Source of the DNA: Bacillota bacterium
GTDB taxonomy: Bacteria; Bacillota; Clostridia; Lachnospirales; Anaerotignaceae
Assembly: GCA_021768705.1 (NCBI GenBank)
Contig: JAETUG010000010.1
Coordinates: forward strand, 1-64,000
Length of the DNA: 64,000 nucleotides
Direction: 5' to 3'
The notes beneath the pieces were generated by a model. It ran no database searches and had not been told where the DNA came from. It saw only the letters and a list, made by a program, of their open reading frames with translations. Made by a program: the position numbers and the translations under genes. This document shows positions 4,811 through 51,018 of this stretch, piece after piece (the first letter of the stretch is position 1; each line of letters opens with the position of its first letter).

Positions 4811-4844
4811 AATCGGTTTTGAAAAGTTCAAGACCGATTTTTTT
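4811..4844 (+). terminator. Terminator of the tRNA cluster
   Basis: A 13-bp stem (4811-4823 with 4827-4839, one G-U pair) has loop AAG and is followed by seven T. Confidence 0.85.
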
Positions 4845-4943
4845 GCATATACAGAGAAAAGCTGATGAAAGACTTTGGCAGATCGGACTGCAGGCAGGAC
4901 AAGCGGACAAAGGCATTTCAAGCAGGGGTTGCGTAGCAAACAC

Positions 4944-4970
4944 ATGAGTATAGCGCAGCCATACGAATGG
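4944..4970. repeat. Hairpin-forming dispersed repeat, copy 1
   Basis: This 27-base core, starting ATGAGTA and ending TACGAATGG, matches the core at 50985-51011 at 21 of 27 positions. Both contain a short inverted repeat (here GTAT...ATAC). It lies between the tRNA cluster and the DUF503 gene. Confidence 0.5.
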
Positions 4971-5011
4971 CTTTTCTCAATATAAAACAAAAGAAAAAAG
5001 GAGTGGATGCC

Positions 5012-14411: not shown

Positions 14412-14516
14412 GTAGGGTCATATGACTGACGGAAGTGGAAGGAACCACATGGGAGTATGACAATTCGAATGCCGACCGTCTGGGCGATGATGCTTGGATC
14501 GTGTGCGGCTTTTTTT
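14412..14516 (+). promoter_or_regulatory. ZTP (pfl) riboswitch with terminator
   Basis: The conserved pfl-motif pieces appear in order: GGTCATATGACTGACGG (14416-14432), AACCACATGGGAGTATGAC (14443-14461) and the 3' pseudoknot element GCCGACCGTCTGGGCG (14471-14486). This class senses the purine intermediate ZMP/ZTP, which accumulates when 10-formyl-tetrahydrofolate is short. A downstream GC-rich segment ending GTGCGGC can pair back to GCCGAC, followed by seven T (14510-14516). Ligand binding should keep the aptamer intact and allow read-through into fhs-folD, which restores 10-formyl-THF. Confidence 0.9.
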
Positions 14517-29991: not shown

Positions 29992-32436
29992 ATGATGTAT
30001 GCAAAGGTGATCGTGGGGCTGAACCGCCCGGAAATGGATAAGATGTTTGATTATGGTGTGCCGGAGGGGCTGGAGGTGCGCCAGGGGGTTCGGGTCATTG
30101 TGCCCTTTGGCAGCCGAAACAGTAAAACGGAAGGCTATGTCATTTCTCTCTCGGAAGAAACGGATGTACCTGAGGATAAGATCAAATATATCATCGAGGT
30201 GTTGGATGAAGGGAAACCGACTTTTACCCCTGTTCTGCTGGAATTGGCGGAATGGATGCAGCAGAGGTATTTCTGCAGCCTGAACCAGTGCCTGCAGGCC
30301 ATCATGCCTGCGGGGATCCGTACCAAAAGCAGTTGGACAGTAAGCCTGAAAGATTTTGCGGAAGAAATAAAGCTGACACCCAAGGAAAAATCGCTGGTGG
30401 ATTTTATAGGGGAACGGAAAAATGTGCCTCTGGATGAAATTCAGGCAGAGTTTGGTGGAAAAGCGATGGATTTCCTGCGGAAAATGGAGGAAAAAGGTCT
30501 GCTGGAATTGCGGCAGGAACTTCGCCGCAGTGAATATAAAAAAGAGAAGAGATTTTATTCTCTGGATGTGGAAGCCTCTCTTTTAGAGGAGGTGCGAAAG
30601 AAGATCGAAAAAGACCGTCGCTTGGAAGGACAGCGGAAAATCATAGCCTATTTGCAGGATGGGAAAGAAGCCACGGCGGAGGAGATGAAGGAGAAACTGG
30701 GCGTGACGGATTCCCCCATCAAGACCTTGCTGCAGAAGGGCATTTTACTGGAACGAAGGCAGACGGAGCTGCGGAAGGTTTTCGATGCAGAAGATTTCCA
30801 AAGGACAGATGCATTTACTCCTACGGCAGAGCAGGCAGCCGCACTGGCTGCTATCCGTTCTGAAATGGAAAAGGAAGAAAAGCGACCTGTGCTTTTGCAT
30901 GGGGTGACGGGCAGCGGCAAAACGGAAATCTATATGCAGATCATTGCCGATGTGCTGGCGAGGGGGCAGCAGGCCATTGTGCTTGTGCCCGAAATTGCCC
31001 TGACACCGCTGATTCTGGAACGATTTATTTCCCGCTTCGGCGATGCGGTCAGCGTGACCCATAGCCGCCTTTCCATGGGGGAACGGGTAGACCAGTGGAA
31101 AAAGGCACGGGACGGAGAGATTTCCGTCATTATCGGCCCTCGTTCGGCGTTGTTTTTGCCCTTTCAGAACGTGGGGGCAATTATTATGGATGAAGCCCAC
31201 GAAAATAGCTATGTTTCCGATATTACGCCGAAATATGATACAAAAGATGTGGCGGCGGAAGCGGCGAAAAAATATCATGCCCTTTTCCTGATGGGGACGG
31301 CAACCCCCGATCTGGTCAGCTACTATAAAGCAAAAGAAGGGGAATATCTCCTGTTGGAGTTGAAGGAACGCACCGGCGGCGGAACTTTGCCGGAGGTTTT
31401 TGTGACGGATATGCGAAAGGAACTGGCGGAGGGGAACCGTTCGGCATTCAGCAGAGAATTGCAGGAAGCAATTCGGGAAAACCTGCGGAAAGGGGAGCAG
31501 ACCATGCTGTTTTTGAACCGCAGGGGCTATGCCACCTTTGTTTCCTGCCGCAGCTGTGGGCATGTGATGACCTGCCCGGAATGTGACATCACCTATACCT
31601 ACCATGCGAAGGAAAAGGCACTGGTTTGCCATTACTGCGGCAGAAGGGCAGATATTCCCAAGATTTGCCCCGAATGTGGTTCCAAATATATTCGATATTT
31701 TGGCACGGGGACGCAGAAGATCGAAGAAGAAGCGAAAAAGCTTTTTCCAGAAGCTCGCATCCTGCGGATGGATTTGGATACGACCATGACGAAGCACAGC
31801 CATGAAAAGATACTGGAGACCTTCGGCAAGGGCGAAGCGGATATCCTGATTGGGACACAGATGATCGCCAAGGGGCACGATTACCCCAATGTGACGTTGG
31901 TGGGCATCATGGCGGCGGATCTATCTTTGAATGTGGACAGCTATACGGCGGCGGAAACGGGCTTTCGTTTGATGACGCAGGCGGCAGGACGTGCAGGACG
32001 GAGAGGGGACAACGGACGAGTGTTCATCCAGACCTATCAGCCGGAGCATTATGCAGTGAAATATGCCGCGAAACAGGATTTCAAAGGTTTTTATGAAGAG
32101 GAAATATTGATGCGGCAAATGATGGGCTATCCGCCCTTCTCCTCCTTTTTCAGCATCCTCATCGTTGGGGAAGAAAAAGATGCCGTGGAAATTGCGGCCC
32201 AAAAGCTGACGGAAAAGCTGGCAAAGGCTGATGGAGAAGGAATTGCTGCTATTTTAGGGCCTGTGCCTGCGGCATTGCCCAAATTCCGCGGAGACTATCG
32301 GTATCAGTTAATCGTAAAGGCGGCGGAGGAAGAACTTCTGCGAGAACTGGTACTGCCTGTGGTGGAAAGTATGAAGAAAGACAGAAGATTCAAGGTTCGA
32401 TACCAAATTTCTCTAAATCCTACCAATATTGTATAA
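29992..32436 (+). CDS. priA: Primosomal protein N' (replication restart helicase PriA)
   Basis: This 814-residue 3'-5' helicase reloads the replisome at collapsed forks. An N-terminal DNA-binding domain (about 1-105), winged helix, helicase core with Walker A GVTGSGKT (about 305-312) and DEAH (MDEAHENSY), and the zinc domain with four CxxC-type pairs (CRSCGH, CPECD, CHYCGR, CPECGS, about 522-570) are all present. GGGAGGTGAG precedes the start. The length is within the family's 730-830 range. Confidence 0.96.
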   Translation: MMYAKVIVGLNRPEMDKMFDYGVPEGLEVRQGVRVIVPFGSRNSKTEGYVISLSEETDVPEDKIKYIIEVLDEGKPTFTPVLLELAEWMQQRYFCSLNQCLQAIMPAGIRTKSSWTVSLKDFAEEIKLTPKEKSLVDFIGERKNVPLDEIQAEFGGKAMDFLRKMEEKGLLELRQELRRSEYKKEKRFYSLDVEASLLEEVRKKIEKDRRLEGQRKIIAYLQDGKEATAEEMKEKLGVTDSPIKTLLQKGILLERRQTELRKVFDAEDFQRTDAFTPTAEQAAALAAIRSEMEKEEKRPVLLHGVTGSGKTEIYMQIIADVLARGQQAIVLVPEIALTPLILERFISRFGDAVSVTHSRLSMGERVDQWKKARDGEISVIIGPRSALFLPFQNVGAIIMDEAHENSYVSDITPKYDTKDVAAEAAKKYHALFLMGTATPDLVSYYKAKEGEYLLLELKERTGGGTLPEVFVTDMRKELAEGNRSAFSRELQEAIRENLRKGEQTMLFLNRRGYATFVSCRSCGHVMTCPECDITYTYHAKEKALVCHYCGRRADIPKICPECGSKYIRYFGTGTQKIEEEAKKLFPEARILRMDLDTTMTKHSHEKILETFGKGEADILIGTQMIAKGHDYPNVTLVGIMAADLSLNVDSYTAAETGFRLMTQAAGRAGRRGDNGRVFIQTYQPEHYAVKYAAKQDFKGFYEEEILMRQMMGYPPFSSFFSILIVGEEKDAVEIAAQKLTEKLAKADGEGIAAILGPVPAALPKFRGDYRYQLIVKAAEEELLRELVLPVVESMKKDRRFKVRYQISLNPTNIV

Positions 32437-32457
32437 AGATGAAAAATATGATATACT
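32429..32457 (+). promoter_or_regulatory. Promoter of the candidate RNA at 32463
   Basis: TTGTAT (32429-32434), a 17-bp spacer and TATACT (32452-32457) overlap the priA stop region and point straight at the structured segment. Transcription would begin near 32463-32465. Confidence 0.65.
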
Positions 32458-32462
32458 TTTCG

Positions 32463-32592
32463 AGAAGAAGCGGAGTACGGCAAAACCTACGGTTTTTCGG
32501 TACATTTGCACCGTAAATGACAGCTGAAATACACCCTGGTGCAGGCAAGCCTGCAAAGCGTGTCTGATCAGCATCTGTTTCTCCGCTTTTAA
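32463..32592 (+). ncRNA. Candidate structured RNA (three-way junction), class unknown
   Basis: The segment closes on itself: AAGCGGAG (32468-32475) pairs with CTCCGCTT (32581-32588). Inside are two arms. Arm 1 is TACGG/CCGTA (32476-32480, 32511-32515), enclosing AAAACC-TAC-GGTTTT. Arm 2 stacks GCTGA/TCAGC (32523-32527, 32568-32572), ACAC/GTGT and GCAGGC-AA-GCCTGC. It has its own promoter and ends in TTTT. It could be a small RNA or a leader of def. I compared it by eye with THF, TPP, 6S and SRP RNAs and found no match. Confidence 0.5.
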
Positions 32593-32611
32593 ATAAATTT
32601 ACAGAAAGTTT

Positions 32612-32640
32612 TTTGTTTGTTCAAATTTTGGAGATAGTAT
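32612..32640 (+). promoter_or_regulatory. Possible separate promoter of def
   Basis: TTTGTT (32612-32617), 17 bp and TAGTAT (32635-32640) would start a short leader before the def ribosome site AGGAGGA. If used, the RNA at 32463 is independent of def. Confidence 0.4.
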
Positions 32641-32660
32641 GAAAACAGGAGGAAGAAACA

Positions 32661-33113
32661 ATGGCAATTCGCAATATTCGCATCAGCACAGACGAAGTGT
32701 TGAGAAAAAAATGCAAACCTGTAAAGGAGATTACCCCCAATCTGCTGACACTGCTGGATGATATGGCTGATACCATGTATGAAGCAAACGGCGTTGGTCT
32801 GGCGGCACCTCAGGTGGGTATCCTGAAAAGAGCGGTAGTCATCGATGTGGGCGAAGGTCTGGTAGAACTGATTAATCCCGTCATTCTGGAAACCAGCGGT
32901 TCTCAGATCGATGATGAAGGCTGCCTGAGCGTTCCCGGCAAATATGCCCCCGTGGAAAGACCTTACTATGCAAAGGTGGAGGCCATGGACAGAGAGGGTA
33001 ATAAATTCATCATCGAAGGGGAAGAATTGATGGCACGTGCCCTGTGCCATGAAATCGACCATCTGGACGGCATCCTGTATATTGATAAGGCTCTGCCTGT
33101 GGAAGAAGCGTAA
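32661..33113 (+). CDS. def: Peptide deformylase
   Basis: This 150-residue metalloenzyme removes the formyl group from new proteins. The three family motifs are intact: GVGLAAPQ (about 43-50), EGCLS (about 88-92, metal Cys) and HEIDH (about 131-135, metal His and catalytic Glu). ACAGGAGGAAG precedes the start. fmt follows 12 bases later: the enzyme pair that adds and removes formyl on the initiator Met. Confidence 0.97.
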
Positions 33114-50907: not shown

Positions 50908-50934
50908 AGTTTCACAGCCTTTCTAAAAGCGGAG

Positions 50935-51018
50935 AAAAGCATTTCAGTTCCTGCACTGATTGTTTTGCTTGCAAGGAGCGCTCAATGAGTAAGGCAAAGC
51001 CTTACGAATGCTTTTTTT
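50935..51018. terminator. Long composite hairpin before the 51139 gene, with repeat copy 2
   Basis: A 9-bp outer stem AAAAGCATT (50935-50943) pairs with AATGCTTTT (51007-51015), with T-run to 51018. Inside lie GTAAGGC-AAA-GCCTTAC (50989-51005) and palindromes CTTGCAAG and GAGCGCTC. It resembles a terminator, but no gene runs into it from the left on the plus strand. Confidence 0.5.
50985..51011. repeat. Hairpin-forming dispersed repeat, copy 2
   Basis: This 27-base core (ATGAGTA...TACGAATGC) matches 4944-4970 at 21 of 27 positions. Several differences in the stem are compensatory, keeping the hairpin. Confidence 0.5.

Follow-up and report, generated by a model that had tools for sequence, protein, structure and literature searches.

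Here, we identify a folded segment upstream of the peptide deformylase gene def in an Anaerotignaceae bacterium (G000) as one copy of a 125- to 140-bp interspersed element of this gut-bacterial family. We put the probability at about 0.8 that this Anaerotignaceae element is mobile-like, that it settles in transcription-start regions, and that its hairpins function in movement at the DNA level. The reading as a mobile-like repeat follows from the many copies, empty sites in relatives, insertion in both orientations, tandem arrays and covarying base pairing. The element is not a dedicated def switch, and its presence at def is incidental.

Within the window, i.e., the whole 64,000-nt stretch of DNA analyzed, this copy of the dispersed cloverleaf family maps to 32464–32596 on the plus strand using two covariance models, R1 and R2, which were built from the three copies of its own genome and from 29 copies, respectively. 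It scores 136 bits with R1 and 90.9 bits with R2 (E 1.8e-16; next best match in the window, E 0.05), and its fold spans 32466–32590. The RNA of 32463–32592 has a minimum free energy of −46.9 kcal/mol compared to −31.9 ± 3.8 kcal/mol for shuffled sequences (z −4.0), and 0 of 200 shuffles folded as well. As originally predicted, the ends pair over 8 bp: the 5′ arm of the closing stem P1 (AAGCGGAG; 32468–32475) is complementary at 8 of 8 positions to the 3′ arm (CTCCGCTT; 32581–32588), giving a terminal inverted repeat, and columns 6–12 pair with columns 127–133 in the alignment of 29 copies (A6). By contrast, the predicted three-way junction with two arms is replaced by a four-way cloverleaf with three internal arms inside P1 because the consensus of the three own-genome copies and the 29-copy alignment both show it. 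These arms, all on the plus strand, are P2 (32477–32501; columns 16–43) with the inner hairpin AAAACC-UAC-GGUUUU; P3 (32504–32518; columns 46–60), a hairpin AUUUGC-ACC-GUAAAU with the consensus UUUGC-UNC-GCAAA; and P4 (32523–32572), a long, sequence-variable arm with GCAAG at its tip that is defined by the minimum free energy fold and by individual folds of other copies. The complementary strand of the segment also folds, both as DNA and as RNA. In agreement with the noted lack of conserved elements of the THF, TPP, 6S and SRP families, no family in Rfam 15 matched the element at gathering level, and a permissive search of 32380–32680 returned only chance eukaryotic matches far under the cut-off. 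Elsewhere in the window, Rfam detected a ZMP/ZTP riboswitch at 14412–14492 (56 bits), which is probably the riboswitch alluded to in the original prediction.

Covariation, which had been proposed as a check, was assessed across the 29 dispersed copies. Here, 89% of cells pair compared to 36–47% in slid controls, both sides have changed in 16 of the 26 pairs, and 0 of 500 shuffles reach the covariation score; together with the z-score of the fold, this establishes the structured segment as real. For the individual arms, 91% of cells are paired in P2, with both-side changes in six of nine pairs, and 94% in P3. The tips of P2 and P3 are conserved and of the C-UNC-G type; P4 varies in sequence but forms a long hairpin in almost every copy, in many cases with the GCAAG tip. 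The fact that dispersed copies covary shows that the fold is important in single-stranded form, and it is compatible with a function as RNA or as DNA alike. In 50 of 57 copies, the reverse complement, i.e., the strand complementary to the def leader and mRNA, folds better, and it has twice the G-U pairs. Moreover, one-base mismatches on the mRNA strand, in helices taken from single folds, are A-C or C-T in 62 cases vs. G-T or A-G in 11, and every subtype of the element has an excess of C over G on the mRNA strand that is not seen in its flanks. These observations are no more than suggestive of a fold that is relevant on the strand opposite to the mRNA because related copies are not independent and because the asymmetry between G-T and A-C is not seen in the 26 aligned core pairs. 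Nevertheless, the better folding of the opposite strand makes it less likely that the leader RNA itself was selected.

A DNA search of G000 with the priA-def gap identified two more copies, at C10:97365–97487 and C43:40887–41009, which are 77–78% identical over 32469–32591, i.e., exactly the segment. R1 finds eight places in this genome, of which five are strong, and detects the element in 15 of the 98 genomes searched. With R2, the carriers are 14 of 58 Anaerotignaceae genomes from 6 of 17 genera, each with 1–13 copies, and none of the genomes outside Anaerotignaceae in a sample of 295 from the order carries the element. Carriers found in a pattern scan of genome records were Anaerotignum sp. 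RGIG4617, a Candidatus Epulonipiscium MAG and Clostridia MAGs; collections of plasmids, phages and viral contigs held no convincing relatives. Family members comprise P1, P2, P3 and the variable P4. The P1 inverted repeat, which is 8 bp in the window copy, reaches up to 12 bp elsewhere (ATAAAAGCGGAG/CTCCGCTTTTAT). Copies are arranged in tandem, with repeat periods of 124 and 150 bp, at L053:1501–1880, L055:2053–2490 (minus strand) and L064:1553–1760; the inner units of L053 are without the 3′ P1 arm, and the second unit of L064 stops within P2. Some insertions are common to different species (L023/L028 and L024/L033), implying that either the activity is old or retention was selected. The window itself contains two further segments of interest. 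At 50924–51015 on the minus strand, close to the beginning of a gene on that strand that reads like fabG, there is a diverged relative with C-type ends (AAAAGCGGAGAAAAGCATTTCAG...CGAATGC) and with P3 missing. The weak model match with E 0.05, at 4843–4985 on the minus strand just past a tRNA cluster, has a recognizable P3 (TTGCGTAGCAAA) and a GAATGGCTTTTCTC end, and is probably another degenerate relative.

The gene def (32661–33113, plus strand), which was located in 57 of the 58 family genomes, contains the element in its leader. priA ends at 32436, and the gap of 32437–32660 has the 224 bases originally reported. Among 50 def upstream regions that were read, of which two were too short for a judgment, the element is present in three, in the sense orientation in G000 and in G009, which belongs to another genus, and reversed in G006 (L115/L004). 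In the closest relative, G003, in which def is 98% identical, both gap flanks match and the segment is missing, i.e., the site is empty. Thus, the proposed comparison of priA-def gaps in relatives spoke against the prediction, the element being absent at def in nearly all of them, the nearest included. What survives of the idea of a def leader is the position; an RNA related to def or formyl-folate is not supported, given that the element is dispersed, lies at unrelated genes and is absent in 47 of 50 regions. Neighbors of other copies, as named from their translated sequences, include the downstream genes rlmB, gyrB, cysS, glgC, radA and cdaA, as well as tmk, pth, ftsE, asp23 and recJ, and a ttcA-like gene lies beside the element in three species; no common pathway is apparent among the downstream genes. 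Copies are also found at RNase P RNA (L044) and at a tRNA (L030), with both RNAs confirmed by Rfam. In G008 (L044:1501–1981), the element runs straight into the RNase P RNA gene, so that the cloverleaf would form the beginning of the rnpB precursor. For the 38 strongest matches, a codon-score gene caller that was checked on the window places the downstream called gene in the same direction in 31 cases and in the opposite direction in 5.

At def, an extended −10 box (TGATATACT; 32449–32457, plus strand), the end of which lies 12 nt ahead of P1 as measured in our box scan, is def's own promoter. This box is native to def because the def promoters of G003, G008 and other genomes have the same −10 and lack the element. 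The near-consensus promoter claimed at this place was therefore only partly recovered: the extended −10 is present, but the −35 is poor (TTGTAT, 3/6), and a scan of the priA-def gap for sigma-70 promoters and terminators found neither. In many other copies, the 3′ flank (32589–32597, plus strand, in the window) has an extended −10 (TTTTATGRTATAAT), which is degenerate here (TTAAATAAA); the window copy has retained the native upstream −10 while its downstream −10 is gone (CTTTTAAATAAATTT).

The position of the element relative to −10 boxes was analyzed by scanning for TGnTATAAT-like boxes around the copies, collapsed to 47 distinct sites. In 16 of these, an extended −10 ends 10–16 nt upstream of P1 (in almost every case 12–15 nt), compared to a background expectation of 0.13, and only five boxes occur in the 42 positions 17–58 nt upstream of P1. 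The element thus has a strong preference for a place 12–15 nt after a native extended −10, i.e., at or just past the expected transcription start. A box is found 7 nt past the 3′ arm in eight sites, five of which have both boxes, and many copies end in their own extended −10 (CTCCGCTTTTATGRTATAAT). In several reversed (D-type) copies, the box is on the minus strand, 10–13 nt outside the other end. In about half of the 47 sites, neither expected place has a recognizable extended −10. The sites at cysS and gyrB are empty in seven congeners of G081 and contain a single box of the TATGATATAAT or ATGGTATAAT type; in G081, the element begins ~14 nt after this box at both genes, and at gyrB a second TATGGTATAAT follows it. 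Because the empty cysS and gyrB sites retain that box, the upstream −10 is native. In a re-pairing test, the sharing between a flank and its own partner did not exceed that between the flank and the partners of others (p 0.21; the insertions may be old), and as there is no pair-specific duplication, the 3′ box seems to be carried by the element rather than to be a duplicated target.

A second, unrelated hairpin element of 70–80 nt (GAGGAAAG...CATTTGACGAGAAA...CGAGATGGTATAAT) also lies just downstream of −10 boxes (L008:1409–1475, L019:1459–1540 and L195 at ~2005–2090), twice in G000 and once at rlmB in G003; Rfam searches of L008 and L019 gave no match to it. At rlmB, the cloverleaf is present in G000 and the unrelated hairpin element occupies the same place in G003, while neither is found in G008, G005 or G002.

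We suggest that the element inserts into transcription-start regions, where it would recognize the −10 sequence or the melted promoter. The gene may be spared because a promoter stays on one or both sides of the element; two promoters would flank the element after insertion, and one −10 would then decay. At def, the upstream native −10 would have been kept and the element would have joined the 5′ leader. The hairpins would serve movement at the DNA level, with any effect on def expression being incidental. More tentatively, it is possible that the element targets start regions at a fixed offset after the −10 and provides a fresh extended −10 at its distal end, thereby letting essential genes tolerate the insertion, and that promoter starts are a general landing site, also for the second element. 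Random insertion followed by selection could also yield the spacing between −10 and P1. A Y1 (RAYT) transposase was considered as the resident mobilizer and rejected because the distribution does not match that of the carriers: the presence of Y1 transposases (PF01797) does not follow that of the element, and none is found in G000, G008, G009, G033 and other carriers, assemblies that are partly incomplete.

Several readings in which the RNA is the functional molecule have to be weighed against a mobile-like repeat. The element is structured and covarying and is found in the def leaders of two genera, as would be expected for a riboswitch or attenuator in the leader RNA that acts in cis on def and is linked to formyl-folate metabolism. 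However, the element is lacking from nearly all def upstream regions, is reversed in one of the three that have it, precedes unrelated genes, RNase P RNA and a tRNA elsewhere, folds better on the opposite strand and has no match in Rfam, making this explanation very improbable. The fixed spacing between −10 and P1 would place a transcription start a few nucleotides before P1, and TTTT follows the 3′ arm; together with the covariation, this is consistent with a multi-copy family of small RNAs of ~130 nt each that start just past the upstream −10 and stop near the 3′ arm (CTCCGCTTTT). We regard such a family as improbable: the scan found no terminator-like site, where the only −10 lies downstream, a copy's own promoter would not transcribe it, D-type copies are read from the opposite side, and here, too, the better folding of the reverse strand counts against an RNA function.

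The element could also have originated as a mobile repeat and been domesticated as a 5′-leader stabilizer, copies near starts having been kept since a structured 5′ end protects the mRNA. The predominance of co-directional downstream genes (31 vs. 5), the predicted start of P1 within a few nucleotides of the start site and the persistence of some insertions across species all fit this scenario. By contrast, the weaker D-type copies are mostly antisense, near relatives are without the def insertion, and the mismatch asymmetry favors the non-mRNA strand. We therefore consider domestication unlikely and favor a mobile-like element with hairpins for DNA-level movement.

The element is short, contains no ORF of at least 80 aa, has 1–13 copies per genome and is bounded by terminal inverted repeats, as are MITEs; it is also dispersed, structured, taxonomically restricted and intergenic, as are repeats of the BOX/Correia type. 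The best reading is a MITE/BOX-like interspersed element, which we do not file as a MITE; in the open-access literature, we found no description of it in Anaerotignaceae. The BOX, RUP and SPRITE repeats of Streptococcus pneumoniae are short, interspersed, extensively structured and clade-restricted, and have been judged parasitic and not regulatory (PMC3049150). They vary in modules and tandem number and are over-represented between convergent genes (PMC3049150). The Anaerotignaceae element is likewise short, structured, confined to a narrow clade and variable in its tandem repeats, a likeness in description; however, rather than convergent gene ends, it favors transcript starts at a fixed distance from the −10. 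Correia elements of Neisseria are small, inverted-ended, mostly upstream of genes and promoter-bearing, and one lies just downstream of the mtrCDE promoter (MITE review PMC10969869). The element shares these small, inverted-ended repeats with promoters mostly upstream of genes, but differs from Correia elements in its clade, its conserved four-helix cloverleaf and its fixed offset to a native −10, and no target-site duplication was detected. As with REP sequences, which are mobilized by Y1 (RAYT) transposases, it is palindromic, extragenic and able to form hairpins as a single strand. In contrast to REP sequences, given as 20–40 bp in PMC3733652, it is ~130 bp with four helices, and the window's genome, like several of the other carriers, lacks the Y1 transposase.

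Seen from one genome alone, the segment is a candidate riboswitch, and only its relatives reveal a repeat, which calls for caution in leader-RNA discovery. If the fixed −10 offset reflects insertion specificity, the element would represent an unusual promoter-directed landing habit in bacteria. In that case, it would also be a natural promoter-plus-leader cassette in housekeeping genes of these bacteria, including def, gyrB, cysS and rnpB.
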